From Halorussus caseinilyticus (GTDB taxonomy: Archaea; Halobacteriota; Halobacteria; Halobacteriales; Haladaptataceae): DNA of 64,000 nucleotides. Positions 14,486-25,014 of the stretch are shown here, in pieces. Position numbers and translations under genes: made by a program. The notes beneath the pieces are model-generated. The model worked only from the letters and a program-made list of their open reading frames with translations, did no database searches and was not told where the DNA came from. The stretch spans positions 3,286,001 to 3,350,000 of the forward strand of contig NZ_CP119809.1 of the NCBI RefSeq assembly GCF_029338395.1, given 5' to 3'. Position 1 is the first letter of the stretch. The number at the start of each line of letters is the position of its first letter.

Positions 14486-14610
14486 TCGTCAATCGTCGCC
14501 GGTCGGCCGAGCAATCACAATACTCCAGCTTCGAGCGGTTGTCGGGCGCTGAGGCGGGCGTCCCGTCGTCATCCGACCCTGTTTTCACGCTCGAACTCCA
14601 AGGTCGAGTC

Positions 14611-16083
14611 GTGACTGACCGAGGCTTCACCACCGACGGCGAGTGGAATGCACTGTACGTAGATGGCGAGTGGGTCGAAGCGAGCGGCGACGAGACAATC
14701 GGAGTCGAGAACCCGGCGACGCGCGAGCAGGTCGCCGAAGTTCCGGCCGCAACCGAGTCGGACGTAGACCGGGCCTACGAAGCGGCGGCCGCGGCCCAAG
14801 CGTCGTGGAGCGACCGGTCGGCCGACGAGCGTGCCGAAATCGTCGGGAACGCCATCGACCTGTTAGACGACCACCGCGACGAGATTCTGGAGTCGCTGGC
14901 GGTCGAATCGGGGAGCGCGAACGCGAAGGCGTTCGCCGAGTGGCAGACCGCCCAAGGGATGTGTCACCACGCGACCGGTCTCGCGGGGAAGTTGGGGAGC
15001 GAGACTTCGGACTCGATGATTCCCGGCAAGGAGAACGAGGTAGAGCGCGTGCCCGAGGGCGTCGTGGGAGTCATCTCGCCGTGGAACTTCCCGTTCAACC
15101 TCTCGATGCGGGCGGTCGCGCCCGCAATCGCGCTCGGGAACAGCGTCGTCCTCAAACCCGCCTCGGCGACCCCCATCACGGGCGGTCTGCTCATCGCGCG
15201 ACTCTTCGAGGAGGCGGGCCTGCCCGAGGGCGTCCTGAACGTCGTGACGGGACGCGGGTCCGACGTGGGCGACCGGATGGCCTCCCACCCGGAACTCGAC
15301 GTGATGGCGTTCACGGGTTCGACCGAGGTCGGCAAGCACGTCGCGGCGACGGCCGCCGAAAACCTCGCGCTCCCGGCGATGGAACTCGGCGGCAACAACC
15401 CGTTCGTCGTGACCGAGGACGCCGACGTTGACGCCGCCGTCGATAGCGCGGTGTTCGGCTCGTTCCTCCATCAGGGCCAGATTTGCATCTCCATCAACCG
15501 CCATCTGGTCCACGAATCGGTGTACGACGAGTACGTAGAGCAGTTGGCCGACCGCGCAGAGAGTCTGCCAATCGGCGACCCGCGCGAACGCGAGAACGTC
15601 GTCGGTCCCGTCATCGACGAGGGCCAACGAGACCAGATTCTGGAGTACGTCGAACAGACCGTAGAGGCCGGTGCGACCCTCGAAACCGGCGGCGACCACG
15701 ACGACCTCTACGTCGAACCGACGGTCCTCTCGGACGCCACGAACGACATGGCCGCGGCCTGCAACGAACACTTCGGCCCGGTCGCGCCCGTGATTCCGTT
15801 CGCCGACGACGAGGAAGCGGTCGAACTCGCCAACGACACCGAGTACGGTCTCGCGGCGGCGATTCACGCGGGCGACCTCGATTACGCGCGGGACCTCGCC
15901 GACCGAATCGAGGCGGGTATGGTCCACCTCAACGACCAACCGGTCAACGAGGAACCGGCGATTCCGTTCGGCGGGATGAAGCAGTCGGGCATGGGCCGGT
16001 ACGACGGCGACGAGATTCTGAACGAGTTCACCCAGACCAAGTGGATTTCGACCCAGACCGAGAAGCGCGAGTACCCCTTCTAA
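14611..16083 (+). CDS. NAD(P)-dependent aldehyde dehydrogenase
   Basis: Oxidises an aldehyde to the acid. From the GTG at 14611 the protein has 490 aa, the usual family length; a TTG at 14539 would add 24 residues outside the family. The catalytic Cys is C292 in HQGQICISINR and the general base is E258 in MELGGNNP. EVGKHVAATAAENLALP precedes it, VISPWNFPFN is the cofactor entrance, and the C-terminal PFGGMKQSGMGRYDG is the usual end block. Aldehyde specificity is not evident. It is followed by a 15-bp hairpin at 16107-16139. Confidence 0.9.
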   Translation: MTDRGFTTDGEWNALYVDGEWVEASGDETIGVENPATREQVAEVPAATESDVDRAYEAAAAAQASWSDRSADERAEIVGNAIDLLDDHRDEILESLAVESGSANAKAFAEWQTAQGMCHHATGLAGKLGSETSDSMIPGKENEVERVPEGVVGVISPWNFPFNLSMRAVAPAIALGNSVVLKPASATPITGGLLIARLFEEAGLPEGVLNVVTGRGSDVGDRMASHPELDVMAFTGSTEVGKHVAATAAENLALPAMELGGNNPFVVTEDADVDAAVDSAVFGSFLHQGQICISINRHLVHESVYDEYVEQLADRAESLPIGDPRERENVVGPVIDEGQRDQILEYVEQTVEAGATLETGGDHDDLYVEPTVLSDATNDMAAACNEHFGPVAPVIPFADDEEAVELANDTEYGLAAAIHAGDLDYARDLADRIEAGMVHLNDQPVNEEPAIPFGGMKQSGMGRYDGDEILNEFTQTKWISTQTEKREYPF

Positions 16084-16329: not shown

Positions 16330-16770
16330 GCCGACGCTCGACGCCTCAAAGACGGGAAATGTTGCTCTAAGACAGATAAATAATTGCTAGAAGATGGAAA
16401 ATGTTTACTTTCGGTCGGTCGCTACGAGGTTCGACTCACTGGTGCGGGACGACCCCGCGCCAGACCGGACCACCGGTGGTCTCGCGGAGCGACCGGTGGT
16501 GAACTCGAATCCGAGTTCGAGCGACCGTCGCTCGCGCGCTCTCGACCGACCCAATTCTGGGCGGCGCGCGTCGGCGCGCGCGAGATGGTCGCGGTCGGCG
16601 GTCAGATTTTCGCGCGAAGTACTGTATATTTAGCACTCCTCCTCGAATTGAACCGATATTTCCCTGTGAGCTACCCTTTTTATACTGTATTCTAAATAAA
16701 TTAACTGAATGGGGGGATAATTCCGTTACAATCGTGCTTTCTATCGAACTAACCTTTAATTCAGCAAAAC

Positions 16771-16780
16771 GCTTAAATAA
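16771..16780 (+). promoter_or_regulatory. TATA-like box of terpene synthase gene 1
   Basis: GCTTAAATAA is centred 27 bp before the ATG at 16803, fitting a leaderless haloarchaeal transcript. Confidence 0.6.
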
Positions 16781-16802: not shown

Positions 16803-17930
16803 ATGGCAAACAAGTTCGCAGGCGAAGTGGAGCAGATGAAGAAGACGCGCTCGCAACCCGGCACGCCGGAGATTGGCGGTAGCCAGAGTGCCAGTACAGT
16901 CAACGTTCCAACCATGTCAACGGTCGAAGAGATGGCGACTGTGGACGACCTCGGAATTCTGTTCGACGACCGGGTCGAGAAACGAGTGCTAAACGAAATC
17001 AAAACGACGGAACTTCCCGAGGACATCGAAGACATCATTCTCGACGACGGCGTGCTTGGTGACCGAGAAGAACTATCCTGGAAGTGGGTGTGGCACGTCT
17101 GTACCGAACTGCTGACTCTCGATTGTGTCGGCGACGAGTATCGGCAAGAAGCGTACGAGGCGAAGGCGTTGATGGCGATTTACGTTACGCTGGTAGACGA
17201 CATCGGCGAGCAACTCAACGACAAGGCGACGTTCTGGGAACTGGCCAAGACCGCATACCCCGAGGCCGAACCAGACTGGGAACGCGAAGACATCAACTCG
17301 GACTACGCTCACAGCATCCGCCGAGTGTGGACTGAACTCATGGACCGACTCGAGTCCGCGCCGCGGTTCGACGAGTTCGAAGACCCGTTCATGTTCAACC
17401 TGCGCGAGACGGTCCAAGCCATGGAGTACACACAGATGTCGGACGAGTACTCCGCGTTCATGAACCCCGAGGAGATGTGGCATTTCGACACGCAGGGAAT
17501 CGGGTCGTTCCTCTACTGGACCGTGGACCTGATGTACTCGCCGTCGTTCGAGATGGACGACTTCCGGGAGTTCCGCCAACTCGTCCACGAACTCCAGCAC
17601 ATGTGGAGACTCGGCAACTGGATTACCACGTGGGAAGAAGAGGTCTACGAACAGGACTTCTCGGCCGGAGTCTTCGTGGAAGCCCTCAACAACGGCGTTA
17701 TCGACGAGACGGACATCGAACGCCTCGAATCCGGGGAGACGAACCCCGAGCGACTCATCGGCCGCATCAAGGCGTCGGGAATCGTCGAGCAGTTCATCGC
17801 CGATTGGAAACGCCGACGTGACCGGTTGCACGAGCGGGACTTCGAGATGCAGTCGCTCGACGCCGACCAGATGGTCGTGATGATGGAGCGGATGATGCGC
17901 AACCATCTCGCAACTAGCGAGTACCGATGA
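16803..17930 (+). CDS. Class I terpene synthase-like protein, copy 1
   Basis: 375-aa, all-helical protein with the two metal-binding motifs of class I terpene synthases. The Asp-rich motif DDIGE is at 132-136 (in TLVDDIGEQL), and the second motif has N272, T276 and E280 in GNWITTWEEE. About 135 residues separate them, as in bacterial-type cyclases. Such enzymes ionise a prenyl diphosphate and cyclise it in the cytoplasm. The first 45 residues are polar and differ from copy 2 except VPTMS. ATG chosen from the TATA box 27 bp upstream. Copy 2 lies at 22103-23227. Substrate (C15 or C20) and product unknown. Confidence 0.82.
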   Translation: MANKFAGEVEQMKKTRSQPGTPEIGGSQSASTVNVPTMSTVEEMATVDDLGILFDDRVEKRVLNEIKTTELPEDIEDIILDDGVLGDREELSWKWVWHVCTELLTLDCVGDEYRQEAYEAKALMAIYVTLVDDIGEQLNDKATFWELAKTAYPEAEPDWEREDINSDYAHSIRRVWTELMDRLESAPRFDEFEDPFMFNLRETVQAMEYTQMSDEYSAFMNPEEMWHFDTQGIGSFLYWTVDLMYSPSFEMDDFREFRQLVHELQHMWRLGNWITTWEEEVYEQDFSAGVFVEALNNGVIDETDIERLESGETNPERLIGRIKASGIVEQFIADWKRRRDRLHERDFEMQSLDADQMVVMMERMMRNHLATSEYR

Positions 17931-18145
17931 CCGTCAGTATCCTAGAAGCGGTGTGATAGAGTTCTCTGACCCGGAGGGTCCATGAAAGAGCGTCTCGCAC
18001 TGCAGTGGCGACGCAAGTGAGGTTGACTGTTCTGTCTGGGGACCGGAAGTTACGAAACGGTTCTGGAACGGTAGTTCTCGGAAAAGTAGCTTCGGCGGTA
18101 GTCCTCGGGAAGTACCGGTAGGAGCGTCCGCGATAGCGAAGTAAC

Positions 18146-18688
18146 CTACCAAGTCACTTCCCACACGAACTTCTCGTCTCCCTCCGGTTCCGACTCTTCG
18201 AGATGCGGGTTCGCATCGGTCGGTCCAAAGCGGTTTATCATCCGAGTGTGGACTCCCTTCACGAATGGCTTCGGAAGCGCCCAGTTTTTGTCTGCTCCGA
18301 GTCGGGCCTCACGTGCGGCGGTGTCTAAGTCGTACGTGTAGCGGCCACCGGGGTACTTCATGTCGGAATCTTGGTAGACCTCCTGAACCGTCTTGTCCAG
18401 TTTATCGTATGCTTCTTCGAGACTGATGTCGTCGGAGTAGGGAAGCGTTTGTGCCGATGCTTCGCCACCTTGCTTCATCGTCTGGACACCTACTTCGTCA
18501 GTGAGTCTGCTGTACGCTTCGGCGACATCCCCTAGCCGGTACCATTCGTCGGCGTCGATGTCACCGAGGACCTCTTTGAACATCTCGCGCGTCTTTTTCT
18601 CGAAGATAGGGGAAACTTCTCCCATGGTTTCGATTACGGCATTAATGTACTGTCCGTCCGCCAGTGCATCTTCGTCGTAACGGGACAT
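18146..18688 (-). CDS. Small protein of the WEVTW-ending family, copy A
   Basis: 180-aa soluble protein, not firmly recognised. It has a helical N-terminal half (SPIFEKKTREMFKEVLGDIDADEWY, then LGDVAEAYSRLTDEVGVQTMKQGGEA), a middle with YPGGRYTYDLDTAAREARLG, then LPKPFVKGVHTRMINRFGP and an end FVWEVTW. The layout, with a late G-x-x-x-(R/E)-G helix and a terminal VxW strand, recalls small-molecule-binding V4R/heme-NO-binding-type folds. That is inference only. It is paralogous to 20341-20877 and has its own TATA box. The position between a terpene synthase and the P450 suggests a role in the same pathway. Confidence 0.7.
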   Translation of the reverse strand: MSRYDEDALADGQYINAVIETMGEVSPIFEKKTREMFKEVLGDIDADEWYRLGDVAEAYSRLTDEVGVQTMKQGGEASAQTLPYSDDISLEEAYDKLDKTVQEVYQDSDMKYPGGRYTYDLDTAAREARLGADKNWALPKPFVKGVHTRMINRFGPTDANPHLEESEPEGDEKFVWEVTW

Positions 18689-18711
18689 ATTAGATAAGAA
18701 ATTCTATCATG

Positions 18712-18721
18712 CTATAAATAT
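18712..18721 (-). promoter_or_regulatory. TATA-like box of small protein A
   Basis: CTATAAATAT is centred 28 bp before the ATG at 18688. The same TATAAATATT core precedes paralogue B at the same distance. Confidence 0.6.
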
Positions 18722-18919
18722 TGGGGAAGATACCTTTGTTTTAAATCGATAGTAGAAATATCGCCGATATATTCTAGAAGGTAAATGGTACAAATATAAA
18801 AGAATATCGGCGGTGTGGGCCAGATATATCTCGGAAAAATCTCATTTTGAGTAGAAATTTTGAACCCGTTATCATGAAAGATAATCCGGTAGATAAATAT
18901 AAGATAGGCTAAAATGGCG

Positions 18920-20197
18920 TCACTCACGCGCGTACGCTGTCAGATTGATTGGTCGGTCGGGGGCGGCAGTGAGACTGGGATACATGTCGAACTGCTCCGT
19001 TTCGCGGTCGAACGTGAACCGGTCGAAAAACGCGGCGAGCGCCATTTTAACTTCCGTTCTAGTGAACTGCTCGCCGATGCACTGTCGCGGTCCGCTTCCG
19101 AACGGGAAATACGCGAACGAGTGACGGTCGGAGCTTCCTGCAAATCGACTCGGCCGGAACTCGTCGGGTGCGTCCCACCAGCGTTCGTCTCGGTGAATCA
19201 CCCACTCGGGGAGTTGGACCACGTTGCCCTCCGGAATCAAGTAATCTCCGAGAGTCGTGTCGGTGGCCGTTTCTCGGAAGATAGCGTGAGCAGGTGGACA
19301 GTATCGCATCGTTTCGTCTATCACCTGCTCTGTGTACGTCAAGTCGTCCAAATGTCGTGCGCGCGGGTCGTCACCGTTGAGCACCTCGTCGATTTCGGCC
19401 ACGAGACGTTCCTCCACTTTCGGTTTGTTTGCGACGAAGTAGAGAACGTACGTCAGTAGAATTGCGCTCGTCTCGTGGCCGCCGAACAGGAACGTTATCA
19501 TCTCGTCACGAACTCGTTCGTCGGTGTAGTCCGCTTCGCTGTCTGACCCAACCGTAACCAGCGTCGACAACAAATCGTCGCCACTCCCGTTCTGTTTTCT
19601 GTCTTCTATCATCTCCTCGACCCGATTGACTAACTGCTTTCTCCCGCTCTCGTACTCTTTTTCGACGTTTTCCGGTATCTCCCCTGCACTTGCCGACTCC
19701 CTGAACCAGTGGGTAATCGTATCGGTAGCTTCGGTGATTGCTCTGTCTTCTTCCATCTCGCCGAACAGTGCCCGAAGCATCACCCGAAGGGTTACGTCCG
19801 TCATCACCTCGTGGGCGTCGAACGTCTCGCCGTCCGTCAAACCATCTGCGATTTCGGTTACGATTTCGCTAATCGAGTCACAGTACGAACGTACTTGTGA
19901 CGCTCGGAAGAACGGTTGTAGTTCGCCGCGTTGCGCTCGCCACTGTTCTCCTTCCACCGCGACCACACCGCCGCCGAAAATCTGTTTGTAGGGGTCGAAC
20001 TTGTAGTAGTCTTCATTGTTTTTAATCAACACTCCCTCCACGAAATCCGGGTGAGAAACCATGTAATGGTCTTTTTCGGGGCCGGTAATCCGAACTACGT
20101 CACCCTCTTTTGCCCATTCGGTACGGGTTTCGAATGGGGCTTGCTGGTACTCGGCGAGCGTCCCGACAATGGGAGGCCGTTTATTTTTTGAATTCAT
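18920..20197 (-). CDS. Cytochrome P450
   Basis: 425-aa soluble P450 (no membrane anchor), a heme monooxygenase of the bacterial CYP type. The heme block FPFGSGPRQCIGEQF has the ligand C373. E295-R298 in DETMRY is the ExxR pair, and the I-helix oxygen-binding motif is FGGHETS (about 238-244). PEWVIHRDERWW is the meander-side block. I take the ATG at 20197; the TTG three codons upstream is less likely, and the TATA box at 20221-20227 is 27 bp before the ATG. No ferredoxin or reductase is adjacent, so electrons must come from elsewhere. The terpene synthases on both sides make a terpenoid the likely substrate. Confidence 0.92.
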   Translation of the reverse strand: MNSKNKRPPIVGTLAEYQQAPFETRTEWAKEGDVVRITGPEKDHYMVSHPDFVEGVLIKNNEDYYKFDPYKQIFGGGVVAVEGEQWRAQRGELQPFFRASQVRSYCDSISEIVTEIADGLTDGETFDAHEVMTDVTLRVMLRALFGEMEEDRAITEATDTITHWFRESASAGEIPENVEKEYESGRKQLVNRVEEMIEDRKQNGSGDDLLSTLVTVGSDSEADYTDERVRDEMITFLFGGHETSAILLTYVLYFVANKPKVEERLVAEIDEVLNGDDPRARHLDDLTYTEQVIDETMRYCPPAHAIFRETATDTTLGDYLIPEGNVVQLPEWVIHRDERWWDAPDEFRPSRFAGSSDRHSFAYFPFGSGPRQCIGEQFTRTEVKMALAAFFDRFTFDRETEQFDMYPSLTAAPDRPINLTAYARE

Positions 20198-20220
20198 GCC
20201 TCTCAATTTATCTCTGCCAT

Positions 20221-20227
20221 TATAAAA
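20221..20227 (-). promoter_or_regulatory. TATA-like box of the P450 gene
   Basis: On the minus strand GGTTTTATAATGG is centred 27 bp before the ATG at 20197. A further AT-rich run (20229-20245) lies behind it. Confidence 0.6.
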
Positions 20228-20340
20228 CCTTTATATAATAGGTAATATAAAAGAGGGCGTCTTCAGACTGCTCTCACGGATACGCTAAACGTGAGAACGT
20301 TCGGAGCGCGTCTCCTCCGTAGAGTCCGTCTCGAAGCGAC

Positions 20341-20877
20341 TTACCAAGTCACTTCCCACGCGAACTGCTCGCGGTCTTTCGGTTCCACTTCCTCGAACTC
20401 GGGGATGGCGTCTTCCGGCCCGTACTCCTCAATCATCGCAGTGTGGACGCCCTTTGCGAACGGTTTCGGAAGTAGAAACGCCTCGTCTGCTCCGAGTCGC
20501 GCCGAACGTCCGTCGAGTTCGTACAGGTACTTACCACCGGGGTACTCCATGTCCGAACCTTTGAACACCTCTTTGTGGGCTCCGAGTATTGCCCCGTACG
20601 CTTCTTCGAGGGTCGCGTCGTCCGGAATTGGCACTTCCTTCCCAGACGCTTCTCCACCCACCTTCATCGTCTGAGCACCCACGTCGTCTAGGATACGCTG
20701 GAACACCTCGGCAACCTCGCCCGTTTTGTACCATCCTTCCGGGTCAACGTCGCCAATGACCTCCTGAAACATCTCGCGGGTCTTCTTTTCGAAGATACTC
20801 GAAATCTCTCCCGTAGAGTTGATGAACGCGTGAATGTATCTACCAGTTACCTCGGCGTTTTCGTCGTACTTTGCCAT
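20341..20877 (-). CDS. Small protein of the WEVTW-ending family, copy B
   Basis: 178-aa paralogue of 18146-18688. The same order of blocks is seen: EISSIFEKKTREMFQEVIGD, WYKTGEVAEVFQRILDDVGAQTMKVGGEAS, YPGGKYLYELDGRSARLGAD, LPKPFAKGVHTAMIEEYGPEDA and the end FAWEVTW. There is no signal, membrane helix or Cys pair. The ATG at 20877 is chosen from similarity to copy A and the TATA box at 20901-20910; the upstream 27 codons are AT-rich and non-protein-like. Function unknown. Confidence 0.7.
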   Translation of the reverse strand: MAKYDENAEVTGRYIHAFINSTGEISSIFEKKTREMFQEVIGDVDPEGWYKTGEVAEVFQRILDDVGAQTMKVGGEASGKEVPIPDDATLEEAYGAILGAHKEVFKGSDMEYPGGKYLYELDGRSARLGADEAFLLPKPFAKGVHTAMIEEYGPEDAIPEFEEVEPKDREQFAWEVTW

Positions 20878-20900
20878 ACTATCTGCAAGCAACTGATGAG

Positions 20901-20910
20901 TTATAAATAT
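20901..20910 (-). promoter_or_regulatory. TATA-like box of small protein B
   Basis: TTATAAATAT (plus strand) is centred 28 bp before the ATG at 20877, in the same arrangement as for copy A. Confidence 0.6.
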
Positions 20911-21109
20911 TCTGAAATATATAAACTGTTTTATATTTTGGGTAGTATTTCGAAACATCTCCGGAGTTTGGTCTTAAGTATAAAAATAACTACACCGCTC
21001 GACGGACGAAGTCCTTCTCCCGACGCTGTCAGGGCCGTTTCGAAACTCCCTCCAGACCGATACGCTTGCATCTTCAGATTGAAATACCGCGCGCGACCAG
21101 TCGTCCGTA

Positions 21110-21913
21110 ATGAACTTCGACGCCGAGTCGTTCACCGTCGCGGTCAAAGACAGCGCGCGCGAGGTCAACGAGGCGGCGCGACGGGTGGCAATCACCGAGG
21201 GCGACCGTCTCGAGTTCGACTCCGAGACGGCCGCTCACCGGCGCGCCAGAGAACTCTCCGAGGGCGGCGAGACTCCGGTGAAGGTCCAGCGAGCGGCACC
21301 GCAGGACCCCGACGACGTGGACGGCTATCTCGTGGCGTGGCCCGAGCGCCGGACGCAGAACCCCGAGGGGTCGCCCACCGAGGGACTGACGTTCGACACC
21401 GAGGCCAACCAGTACGGTGCGCTCGGGGAAGCAGTCGCCTTCACGCCAGAGGTGAATCCGCCGCTGTTGACCCACTTCGCGCGGGTAGACGCCGACCTTC
21501 CCGACGTTGACTTCTCGGACCGCGAGCGAGACGAACTCCGCGTCGAACTCGACACCGACCCGGCCCCGGTCGTCGTCGGGTCCGACAGACGGTGGGAACC
21601 TGACTGCCGTGCAGTCGTCCGGTTGGGTCCCGACCGGCCGGTTCTCACCGAGTACTGGTGCGAGGTCAAAACCGGCGACGGGTCGTTCGAGCGGAGTCAA
21701 CGCGAAGCGATGCGGGCGAAAGCACGCGAAGCGTCCGTCCTCAAGATTCGCGTCGAGTTGGACGACTTGCCCGACAGATACACGGCGTGGGTTCGGACCG
21801 TCGAACCGGACAGCGGTGACGCGAACGGCGGTGAAACGACCAAGCTCGGGGTCGAGGAGAGAGACGACGACCAGCAGGTGTATCGAGTCAACGCATCGCT
21901 ACGGGACTTTTGA
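21110..21913 (+). CDS. Hypothetical protein with PD-(D/E)XK-like nuclease motif
   Basis: 267-aa acidic soluble protein, not recognised as a named family. Residues 163-200 (EPDCRAVVRLGP...EYWCEVKTGDGSFERSQREAM) have the spacing of a PD-(D/E)XK nuclease core: D165, then E185-V-K187 on the next strand and a following helix with Q/R. The N-terminal 60 residues look like a separate helical module. GC-rich, unlike the AT-rich flanks. It lies between small protein B and terpene synthase 2; whether it belongs to the pathway or is a bystander is unclear. The start ATG follows no strong promoter. Confidence 0.65.
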   Translation: MNFDAESFTVAVKDSAREVNEAARRVAITEGDRLEFDSETAAHRRARELSEGGETPVKVQRAAPQDPDDVDGYLVAWPERRTQNPEGSPTEGLTFDTEANQYGALGEAVAFTPEVNPPLLTHFARVDADLPDVDFSDRERDELRVELDTDPAPVVVGSDRRWEPDCRAVVRLGPDRPVLTEYWCEVKTGDGSFERSQREAMRAKAREASVLKIRVELDDLPDRYTAWVRTVEPDSGDANGGETTKLGVEERDDDQQVYRVNASLRDF

Positions 21914-22072
21914 GACGCTTCTCGCAAGTGGGGCGTGTCCGATTCAGACAGAAGTCTATCTCCACCCTTCAAGCATTCGTAAATTACTCTTACCACCGTC
22001 GTAAATCGGATATTACATAATTTTGAATTGTTTAAATTATATCCTAATTATAACATAGGATACCAAATGATT

Positions 22073-22083
22073 GATTAAACATA
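22073..22083 (+). promoter_or_regulatory. TATA-like box of terpene synthase gene 2
   Basis: GATTAAACATA is centred about 26 bp before the ATG at 22103, the same leaderless layout as copy 1. Confidence 0.5.
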
Positions 22084-22102
22084 TACAAAATTATTTGACA
22101 CG

Positions 22103-23227
22103 ATGACGGAGAACGCATCTAGGCCGATAAAGAGCGGTGAAACCCACACACAGTTCAACAAGCCGATAGCGAACCATGGCCGGAACACCGGGAGAATCAC
22201 CGTCCCAACGATGTCACCCGTTAACGATACGACGACGGTAGACGACCTCAGTCTCGAGTACGACGAGGAAGTCGAACAGCGGATTCTCGGCGAGGTCGAA
22301 TCGGCGACGTTACCGCCCAAAATAAACGACATTGTGCAAGACGATGGCGTTCTCGGGGACCGAAAGCTGTTCACGTGGAAGTGGATGTGGTACGTCTGCG
22401 GCGATATGCTGACGTTGGATTGCGTCGGTGACAAACACAGACAGGACGCCGCCGAGGCGAAGACGCTGATGGCTCTGTACACGACGTTGATGGACGACAT
22501 TGCCGAGAAACTGGGCGACGAGGCGACCTTCTGGGAACTCGCTAAGACGGCCTATCCCGAGTCCGAACCGGACTGGGAGCGCGAAGACATCGATTCGAAC
22601 TACGCCGACAGCATCCGCCGAGTGTGGACCGAGCTCATCGACCATCTCGAATCCGCGCCGCGGTTCGAAGAGTTCGAGGACCCGTTCACGTTCAACCTGC
22701 GCGAGACGGTCCAAGCCATGGAGTACACGCAGATGTCGGACGAGTACTCCGCGTTTATGAACTCCGAAGAGATGTGGTACTTCGACACGCAGGGTATCGG
22801 GTCGTTCCTGTTCTGGACTATCGATTTGATGTACTCGCCATCGTTCGAGATGGACGACTTCCGGGAGTTCCGCCAAATCGTCTACGAACTCCAGCACATG
22901 TGGCGACTCGGCAACTGGGTCACGACGTGGGAGCTAGAAATATACGAAGGCGACTACAGTACGGGTATCATCGTGGAAGCACTCAATCGGGGAATTATCG
23001 ACGGGGCAGAGCTCGAACAACTCGAAACTGGAGAGATGAGTCCCGAACGGGTGATTGGTCGCGTCGAGGCGTCGGGAATCGTCGAGCAGTTCGTCGCCGA
23101 CTGGAAGCGCCGCCGGGACGCGCTGTACCAACGTGACTTCGGGATGCGTTCGCTCGAAAGCGACGAGATGGTCAGAATGATGGAACAGTTCATGCAGAGT
23201 CATCTCGCTATCGAGAAACAACGCTGA
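22103..23227 (+). CDS. Class I terpene synthase-like protein, copy 2
   Basis: 374-aa paralogue of 16803-17930. DDIAE at 131-135 is the first metal motif; N271, T275 and E279 in GNWVTTWELE form the second. The two copies align without large gaps after residue 35 and share a 23-residue identical block around AMEYTQMSDEYSAF; there the DNA is also almost identical (17399-17458 against 22698-22757). The N-terminal 35 residues differ. Both copies keep all metal ligands, so both should be active; differences near the second motif (E279 to L278 neighbour) may alter the product. Substrate unknown. Confidence 0.82.
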   Translation: MTENASRPIKSGETHTQFNKPIANHGRNTGRITVPTMSPVNDTTTVDDLSLEYDEEVEQRILGEVESATLPPKINDIVQDDGVLGDRKLFTWKWMWYVCGDMLTLDCVGDKHRQDAAEAKTLMALYTTLMDDIAEKLGDEATFWELAKTAYPESEPDWEREDIDSNYADSIRRVWTELIDHLESAPRFEEFEDPFTFNLRETVQAMEYTQMSDEYSAFMNSEEMWYFDTQGIGSFLFWTIDLMYSPSFEMDDFREFRQIVYELQHMWRLGNWVTTWELEIYEGDYSTGIIVEALNRGIIDGAELEQLETGEMSPERVIGRVEASGIVEQFVADWKRRRDALYQRDFGMRSLESDEMVRMMEQFMQSHLAIEKQR

Positions 23228-23272: not shown

Positions 23273-24094
23273 CTACCGCCGCGACTCCGGCCACACCGTC
23301 ACCACCGCGACGGCGAGCGTCCCGACCAACCACAGCAGGAGGCCGAGGACGCTCGCCACGGGTGAGGCGGCGGGAGCGCCCGATTCGACACCGCCGACGA
23401 CAGTCTCCAGCACGAGACCCCGGAAGGCGCTGTTCGGACTCAGCGCGAGGACCAGCTCGAGCGCACCCTCGGGGACGACGCCGCCAGCGAGTCCGGCGAC
23501 GATGCCCGCGTCGAACCCGACCACGAGCGCCACCCCGAGCGCGACCGCGACCACGATGCCCGCGCGGGTCGTCCCCGCAGTCGTGGAAATCGCCAGTGCC
23601 GCGCCCATCAGAACCAGTGCGAACGCGGCCGTGAGGACGACGAACCGGAGGTAGAGCAGTGGCGAGTCCATCGCGGCGTGGGAGGCGATGACCGTCGTCC
23701 CGACGCCGCCGAAGGCGGGTACTAGCAGGGCGACCCCCAGAAGCGGGACGACGAGTGCGACCAGCAACGCCGCCGCGCGCCCGAGGTAGACCCCGAGGAC
23801 GAATGTCGCCCGCGAGACGGGGTAGGTCCGAATCACGTCGAGTTCGCCGCGCTCGTCGTCGCCGAGGACCGACCGATAGCCGAACGCCAGCGCCAGCGCG
23901 GGCACCAGCACCTCGACGGGCGTGAGCAGGTCGAGGACCAGCGGAACGTAGCCGACAGCGCCAGCGGTCCACGCCAGCACCGCCACGACTGCGGCGAATC
24001 CTCCGGCGAGCGCGAGGAACGCCCGGGTCCGGACGACCGTCGTCAACTCCCGGCCCACGACCGCGAAGAGTCGGTTGACCGACTGGCGGCTCAT
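23273..24094 (-). CDS. nosY: NosY-type ABC-2 permease
   Basis: 273-aa membrane permease of the NosDFY complex, which supports maturation of the copper centre of nitrous oxide reductase. About six helices are visible. The RSVLGDDERGELDVIRTYPVSRATFVLGVYLGR block is typical of ABC-2 permeases. The ATG overlaps the nosF stop by 4 bp. No nosZ gene is in the window. Confidence 0.85.
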   Translation of the reverse strand: MSRQSVNRLFAVVGRELTTVVRTRAFLALAGGFAAVVAVLAWTAGAVGYVPLVLDLLTPVEVLVPALALAFGYRSVLGDDERGELDVIRTYPVSRATFVLGVYLGRAAALLVALVVPLLGVALLVPAFGGVGTTVIASHAAMDSPLLYLRFVVLTAAFALVLMGAALAISTTAGTTRAGIVVAVALGVALVVGFDAGIVAGLAGGVVPEGALELVLALSPNSAFRGLVLETVVGGVESGAPAASPVASVLGLLLWLVGTLAVAVVTVWPESRR

Positions 24095-25014
24095 TCGTCA
24101 CCCTGCGTCCGGACGCTGACGGTCGGCGCGGTCGTCTCGTCGGCCGCGTCGGGGCGCGTGCCGCCCGTGAGTTCGAGGAACGCCCCCCGAAAGGTGTCGG
24201 CGTCGGTCCGGGCCACGAAGTCGTCGGGCGACCCGTCGGCCACCACGTCGCCGTGGTCGAGCAGGAGAACGGTGTCTGCTTCCTCGGCCCCCGAGAGGTT
24301 GTGAGTCGCAAGCAGGACCGCCATTCCGTCGTCTGCGAGGTCGGCCACGAGGTCGAAGATGTACTCGGTCATCCGGGGGTCCAAGTCGCCGGTGGGTTCG
24401 TCCAAGACGACTATCGGCGGGTCGCCCAGAATCGCCTGTCCGACTCCGAGAAGCCGCGTCATCCCGCCCGAGAGGGTTTCTACCCGGCGGTCGCTCGCCT
24501 CCGACAGGCCGACGCGCTCCACGACGGCCGACACGTCTACCTCGCGGTCCAGCAGGTCGGCGTAGAACCGGAGGGTCTCGGCGACGGTGAACGCCGGGCG
24601 GAACGTCGGACTCTGCGGGAGGTAGCCGACCTCGCGGCCGGTCGTCTCGTTCGTCTTCCCCCCAGTCTCGGCGGTCGGCTTCTCGCCGGTCGTCTCGTTC
24701 GTCTTCCCACCCGTCCCGTCGTCGCTCGCGGCCGGGGCCGCGAGCGACACCGACCCCTCGTCGGGTTCCAACAGGCCGAGAACGGCCCGTAGGAGCGTCG
24801 TCTTCCCAGACCCGTTCGGGCCGACCAGCGCGGTGACGGTGCCCGACTCGACCGAGAACGTCAGGTCCGAGAACACGTCTACCTCGCCGAACGAGTGGCC
24901 GAGACCCGCCACGTCGAGGACCGTCGTCCGCTCGCTCGATTCGGCAGTCTCTCTGTCGTCCGACTCGTCGGTCTCTCGGTCGCTCGGTCGTTCGGAGTGA
25001 GTTCTGTCCGTCAT
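24091..25014 (-). CDS. nosF: NosF-type copper ABC transporter ATP-binding protein
   Basis: 307-aa ATPase energising NosDFY. Walker A GPNGSGKTT, signature LSGGMTRLLGVGQAIL, Walker B IVVLDEPTGDLDP. Between Walker A and the Q-loop (GYLPQSPTFRP) there is a hydrophilic insertion of about 40 residues in which GGKTNETTG occurs twice, a tandem duplication. The N-terminal 30 residues are acidic and disordered. The start overlaps a TGA in the frame that the nosD end seems to have used (ATGA at 25011-25014). Confidence 0.87.
   Translation of the reverse strand: MTDRTHSERPSDRETDESDDRETAESSERTTVLDVAGLGHSFGEVDVFSDLTFSVESGTVTALVGPNGSGKTTLLRAVLGLLEPDEGSVSLAAPAASDDGTGGKTNETTGEKPTAETGGKTNETTGREVGYLPQSPTFRPAFTVAETLRFYADLLDREVDVSAVVERVGLSEASDRRVETLSGGMTRLLGVGQAILGDPPIVVLDEPTGDLDPRMTEYIFDLVADLADDGMAVLLATHNLSGAEEADTVLLLDHGDVVADGSPDDFVARTDADTFRGAFLELTGGTRPDAADETTAPTVSVRTQGDE

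Follow-up and report, generated by a model that had tools for sequence, protein, structure and literature searches.

A 64,000-nucleotide stretch of the Halorussus caseinilyticus genome (contig NZ_CP119809.1, positions 3,286,001 to 3,350,000; hereafter the window) contains at 16803-23227 a group of genes that we read as a horizontally acquired terpenoid cluster. Six genes lie there, namely two predicted class I terpene synthases (TS1 and TS2), a cytochrome P450, two H-NOX/V4R-like proteins and a gene for a 267-aa protein (Table 1). The genome that carries them measures 4.4 Mb in five contigs. TATA-like hexamers start 29-30 nt 5' of the ATG of TS1, of the P450 gene and of both H-NOX-like genes, which is the geometry of leaderless archaeal transcripts. 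The first-pass annotation, made from the DNA sequence without database searches, had described AT-rich promoters of one style across the group. This description stands for these genes; at TS2 the upstream DNA is likewise AT-rich but has no TATA-like hexamer at the exact 29-30 nt spacing. TS1 could alternatively start at a GTG at 16734, upstream of the ATG at 16803; the ATG is favored because of the TATA box at -30.

Table 1. Features of the putative terpenoid cluster (positions in the window)
Feature	Position	Strand	Remarks
TATA-like TTAAAT of TS1	16773..16778	+	hexamer start 30 nt upstream of ATG; leaderless promoter
TS1, predicted class I terpene synthase, 375 aa	16803..17930	+	DDIGE 132-136, N272/T276/E280
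H-NOX/V4R-superfamily-like protein 1, 180 aa	18146..18688	-	V at proximal-His position; YxSxR absent
TATA-like TTTATA of H-NOX-like protein 1	18713..18718	-	at -30
Cytochrome P450, 425 aa	18920..20197	-	GGHET 239-243, E295-x-x-R298, FGSGPRQCIG with C373
TATA-like TTTATA of P450 gene	20221..20226	-	at -29
H-NOX/V4R-superfamily-like protein 2, 178 aa	20341..20877	-	His at proximal-ligand position (HKEVFK); YxSxR absent
TATA-like TTTATA of H-NOX-like protein 2	20902..20907	-	at -30
267-aa protein, G+C 66.5%	21110..21913	+	no Pfam match; not at other clusters
TS2, predicted class I terpene synthase, 374 aa	22103..23227	+	DDIAE 131-135, N271/T275/E279

Synthase motifs, relatives and predicted fold

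Both synthases carry a DDxx(D/E) metal-binding motif and an NxxxTxxxE motif, exactly at the residues first annotated. Conservation was read from 22 sequences, 20 relatives among them, gathered by full-length similarity, with the motif not used as the query (set A1). D132, D133, R269, N272, T276 and E280 were invariant in this set and E136 was retained in at least 90%; across relatives, position 136 is E or D. A larger set (A2) was gathered with a scan pattern that included the second motif. Because this pattern held NxxxTxxxE, the motif invariance in A2 is partly circular, and we rejected it as evidence of conservation and used A1 and distant homologues in its place. These distant homologues, found outside the order with the A1 profile and probably from methanogens, retain DDxxD and NxxxTxxxE; a lack of motif conservation in homologues, which the first-pass annotation had named as a refutation, was not seen. 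A near-invariant RxGNWxxTWxxExxExD surrounds the second motif. In one haloarchaeal member, that of G121, the first Asp is gone (NDLSD), and activity therefore need not hold for every family member.

Individual relatives matched terpene synthase families. When scanned singly, 42 of 62 relatives matched PF19086 (Terpene_syn_C_2), many of them weakly (E-values up to 0.1, best 8.7e-8), and 8 of 62 matched PF03936. A third paralogue in the same genome, 31% identical to TS1, passes the curated cut-off of PF19086. It lies at G000:C1:2439799-2440764 (L003, L053) and is close to a Halorussus salinisoli synthase; an H-NOX-like gene is found about 2.6 kb from it. A first scan of the genome contigs with TS1 alone returned no relative, but an alignment-based scan did find relatives. 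Family membership was revealed only by individual relatives and by the fold.

An AlphaFold2 model of TS1 built with 62 sequences is all helical, with a mean predicted local distance difference test score (pLDDT) of 90.4 and a predicted template modeling score (pTM) of 0.87. The long helices 111-138 and 251-282 each carry one of the two motifs close to the C-terminal end, which is also the place of the motifs in class I enzymes. A Foldseek search of the PDB listed 50 matches (probability 0.99-1.00), all of them terpene synthases, isoprenyl diphosphate synthases or prenyltransferases of the same fold. Aristolochene synthase heads the listed matches (E 3.8e-4), and T-muurolol synthase gave a template modeling (TM) score of 0.61 on its own length. 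According to this model, the predicted fold of TS1 is that of a class I terpene synthase, which bears out the fold proposed at first annotation.

Among the closest described counterparts are bacterial class I synthases of PF19086, such as T-muurolol and pentalenene synthase, which share with TS1 and TS2 the all-helical fold, DDxx(D/E), Nxxx(S/T)xxxE and a similar length. Unlike these, TS1 and TS2 show no direct sequence match to that family, have the additional RxGNWxxTWxxExxExD, and lack both a conserved Arg at the usual offset of the pyrophosphate sensor and RY. Other haloarchaeal and methanogen family members have the same motifs at mostly 25-40% identity. In contrast to TS1 and TS2, they show no close H-NOX-like link, rarely a P450, and in about half of the cases a neighboring Bat-type HTH_10 regulator.

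Partner proteins, distribution and origin of the cluster

The P450 matched PF00067 with an E-value of 1.2e-75. Its heme motif with the intact ligand C373 was as first annotated, its ExxR motif reads ETMR (295-298), and its I-helix (A/G)GxxT motif is also present. The nearest NCBIfam models, both below cut-off, were pentalenene oxygenase and albaflavenone monooxygenase. The P450s of four clusters described below form one clade (support 98/98), apart from six other placeable P450s of the same genome. No P450 of this type was found in 146 other sampled genomes, a sample without genomes G252 and G300.

The two proteins of 180 and 178 aa had been annotated as copies of an uncharacterized protein. 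They are indeed paralogues (58% identical) and appear to belong to the H-NOX/V4R superfamily. Neither window protein matched Pfam directly, V4R and DUF2378 included; relatives matched V4R (1.9e-7) and DUF2378 (6.8e-5). A profile search of the PDB gave weak matches, and the sole sensor domain among them was the H-NOX protein 6ocv (E 0.058). A model built on four sequences was of low confidence (pLDDT 66), and the first 23 Foldseek matches of this weak model were all either H-NOX or soluble guanylate cyclase, with a best E-value of 2.9e-3 and TM-scores of about 0.3. At the proximal heme His position, in a register set by eye, copy 2 has His (HKEVFK versus HVEVYK of 6ocv) and copy 1 has Val. The YxSxR motif is absent from both copies and from the aligned family, and we therefore call the proteins H-NOX/V4R-like rather than H-NOX. 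The low-confidence model resembles in its topology H-NOX and V4R domains (H-NOX of Nostoc and Thermoanaerobacter, PF02830 and DUF2378); unlike H-NOX, the pair lacks the heme-propionate motif YxSxR and has the proximal His in one copy only. H-NOX-like genes elsewhere are scattered over many haloarchaea, and their neighbors at those other loci included no common partner, so they give no functional hint. Genome G305 has eight H-NOX-like paralogues (loci L178-L183), and no synthase of the TS1/TS2 family was found in it.

Of the 394 genomes sampled in the order, 118 (about 30%) contain the synthase family, as do 42 of 95 genera; it also occurs in other families of the phylum. Synthases of the TS1 kind are therefore not rare in haloarchaea, and what is special is the clade and its partners. 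TS1 and TS2 form a clade with synthases of G252, G300, a Haloferacaceae metagenome-assembled genome (MAG; L091), G030, Candidatus Halobonum tyrrellensis and Halomicrobium katesii (Shimodaira-Hasegawa-like approximate likelihood ratio test, SH-aLRT, 100). Synthase, H-NOX-like and P450 genes are co-located in the window, in G252 (L041), in G300 (L042) and in the Haloferacaceae MAG, so that the combination first annotated here recurs in three other genomes. The gene order (TS, synthase; H, H-NOX-like; arrowheads, orientation) is TS>, <H, <P450, <H, (267-aa>), TS> in the window, TS>, H>, H>, <P450 in G252, P450>, <H, <TS in G300, and H>, <P450, TS>, H> in L091; G030 (L045) has the synthase and an H-NOX-like gene only. 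The synthase and P450 clades of the four cluster genomes are congruent. The linkage has been kept despite rearrangement, which argues for a shared function. Family synthases beyond the cluster clade are mostly without a P450.

TS1 and TS2 are 66-72% identical sisters that arose by a lineage-specific duplication. Between them, the nonsynonymous rate (dN) was 0.23, the synonymous rate (dS) 0.86 and dN/dS about 0.27; both copies therefore look constrained. For the H-NOX-like pair, dN/dS was about 0.24. The cluster genes have a G+C content of 55-58%, below the 64.3% of the window as a whole and the 66-71% of the genes on either side. In 27 further genomes searched within the taxonomic family of the host, no synthase exceeded about 34% identity to TS1. 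The low G+C content and the lack of a close synthase in these genomes make acquisition of the cluster by horizontal transfer likely.

Proposed pathway and alternative readings

We propose that the locus is a horizontally acquired haloarchaeal terpenoid cluster in which class I synthases act first and the P450 afterwards, with the H-NOX/V4R-like proteins acting alongside, and we put the probability of this reading at roughly 0.7. Its direct support is the motifs and their conservation, the class I fold, the recurrent linkage, the congruent clades and the separate promoters. We infer the rest as follows, namely the substrate, the product, which enzyme acts first and what the H-NOX-like proteins do. 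TS1 and TS2 would bind Mg2+ via DDxxE and NxxxTxxxE, ionize a prenyl diphosphate, most likely farnesyl diphosphate (FPP) or geranylgeranyl diphosphate (GGPP) supplied by isoprenoid synthesis of the host, and yield a cyclic hydrocarbon or alcohol, which the P450 would then oxidize. The H-NOX/V4R-like pair would most likely be ligand- or redox-responsive sensors or carriers and not catalysts.

Several observations weigh against this proposal. The search against terpene synthase families suggested at first annotation succeeded for the relatives and the third paralogue, but TS1 and TS2 themselves matched no Pfam or NCBIfam model. TS1 had no meaningful match among PDB sequences, and a profile of the family found no PDB chain by sequence. 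The TM-scores of the TS1 Foldseek matches are moderate (0.3-0.6), with E-values of just 1e-3 to 1e-4. The pyrophosphate-sensor Arg of bacterial synthases usually lies 46 residues upstream of the second motif, a position that is typical and not universal; the residue at this offset, 226, is not conserved, and no C-terminal RY was seen in the synthases. The invariant R258 and R269 could serve as substitutes for the sensor Arg. About nine P450 loci are present in the genome, so that a single P450 neighbor would mean little by itself. Furthermore, none of the cluster genes was recognized as coding for a prenyl diphosphate synthase, a redox partner or a transporter.

The synthases may be class I enzymes that do not cyclize, forming a linear terpene alcohol or hydrocarbon or prenylating another substrate, while the P450 acts on a different compound. 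The Foldseek list includes prenyl diphosphate synthases and the N-prenyltransferase DabA, the product type is not readable from sequence, and the nonconserved sensor position also fits this view. However, NxxxTxxxE is a second motif of the terpene-synthase type, where chain-elongating enzymes have a second Asp-rich motif instead, the families matched in Pfam are C-terminal families of terpene synthases, and a P450 is retained next to the synthase clade in four genomes. We consider noncyclizing enzymes unlikely. It is less likely still that the genes merely travel together on a mobile low-G+C island and form no common pathway. DNA is exchanged readily among haloarchaea, the G+C content of the cluster is below that of the host, and close relatives were found neither of TS1/TS2 in the 27 further genomes searched within the taxonomic family nor of the P450 in the sampled genomes. 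Yet the three gene types stay together across four clusters that differ in order and orientation, the scattered occurrence of H-NOX-like genes elsewhere makes chance adjacency improbable, and dN/dS is about 0.25 in both duplicated pairs. The synthase fold might also have been recruited to bind a prenyl ligand in signaling, together with H-NOX-like sensors, given that other family members often adjoin Bat-type GAF/HTH_10 regulators and HalOD1 proteins and that the small H-NOX-like partners resemble sensors. A noncatalytic binder would not need the two metal motifs, which are strict in the cluster clade and kept in almost all relatives, and the P450 partner suggests metabolism; we regard such pseudoenzymes as very improbable.

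Terpene synthase-P450 pairs are known from the pentalenolactone and albaflavenone pathways of Streptomyces. Such clusters are well known outside archaea, as with DdTPS8-CYP521A1 of Dictyostelium (PMC6524965). The present cluster resembles these pairs in that the synthase adjoins the P450, and differs from them in being archaeal, in the added duplicated H-NOX/V4R-like proteins and in having genes mostly under their own promoters. That an H-NOX/V4R-like partner recurs suggests that the clusters include an element for control or transport; we know of no bacterial or eukaryotic terpene cluster with an element of this kind. More tentatively, and with rather less confidence than the pathway itself, the locus may represent an archaeal terpenoid cluster of a new type. 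In it, dedicated H-NOX/V4R-like proteins would act as sensors or carriers of a gas, of heme or of the terpenoid itself and couple it to the class I synthase-P450 pathway. If so, the cluster would belong, with the Bat-linked relatives, to a regulated haloarchaeal terpenome that is extensive and for the most part unstudied.

What is known of isoprenoids in archaea concerns mainly membrane lipids, quinones and carotenoids. The statement in the first-pass annotation that cyclic terpenoid pathways are little known in haloarchaea needs qualification, since the synthase family is common in the order and archaeal terpenoid biosynthesis is already reported in a preprint by Samusevich et al. (10.1101/2024.01.29.577750), as cited in PMC12797696 and PMC13235557; its archaeal terpene synthases are reported to be active. 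PMC13235557 states that archaeal synthases were earlier characterized via expression in yeast, and antiSMASH-type "terpene" clusters are on record for haloarchaea (PMC8600319). We found no paper on a haloarchaeal class I synthase with P450 or H-NOX-like partners in a literature search to which the Samusevich preprint was known by citation only. With a conserved synthase-P450 cluster, in a synthase family that about 30% of the genomes sampled in the order contain, cyclic terpenoids of archaea can be tested for directly in organisms that grow in culture.

Other family members and neighboring genes

Outside the P450 clade, the synthase genes often have a Bat-type GAF/HTH_10 regulator gene as neighbor, with 45 such genes within 1 kb among 99 loci (L041-L060 and L091-L169, some of them overlapping), and HalOD1 proteins (12) also adjoin these synthases. 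Such neighbors suggest that terpenoid production is regulated, and the Bat-type genes hint that haloarchaeal terpenoid output may respond to light, oxygen or redox signals. A TFIIB-type gene lies beside the synthase clusters of L041 (5454-6635) and L045 (6330-7328), where it was confirmed by Pfam, and of L042 (9029-10276) and L091 (1-597), where it was recognized by N-terminal similarity; none was seen at the window cluster. In Natrinema and relatives (L137, L144, L145, L148, L153, L155, L162-L164 and L058), a gene for a metallo-beta-lactamase-fold protein on the opposite strand adjoins or overlaps the synthase. Synthase copies with in-frame stops at L010 and L013 (genomes G005 and G003, respectively) are apparent pseudogenes. 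Family members on the low-G+C (30-34%) contigs L147, L158 and L167, from MAGs labeled Lysobacteraceae, Patescibacteria and Methanohalobium, group together; the Lysobacteraceae and Patescibacteria labels are probably due to misbinning. Frames of 752 aa (G277) and 628 aa (L161) were rejected as fusions, as their extra parts are rich in R and P, like a chance open frame.

The aldehyde dehydrogenase (ALDH) gene upstream (14539-16083) and the ATP-binding cassette (ABC) genes downstream (23273-25014) were considered as parts of the cluster and rejected; both have a normal high G+C content, and no counterpart was recognized at the other clusters. The 267-aa gene is probably unrelated to the pathway. 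We left it out because it lacks a promoter of the TATA-like cluster style, has the G+C content given in Table 1 and did not turn up at any of the other clusters. Its product has E-x-K and GxxGE-like stretches reminiscent of a PD-(D/E)xK nuclease.

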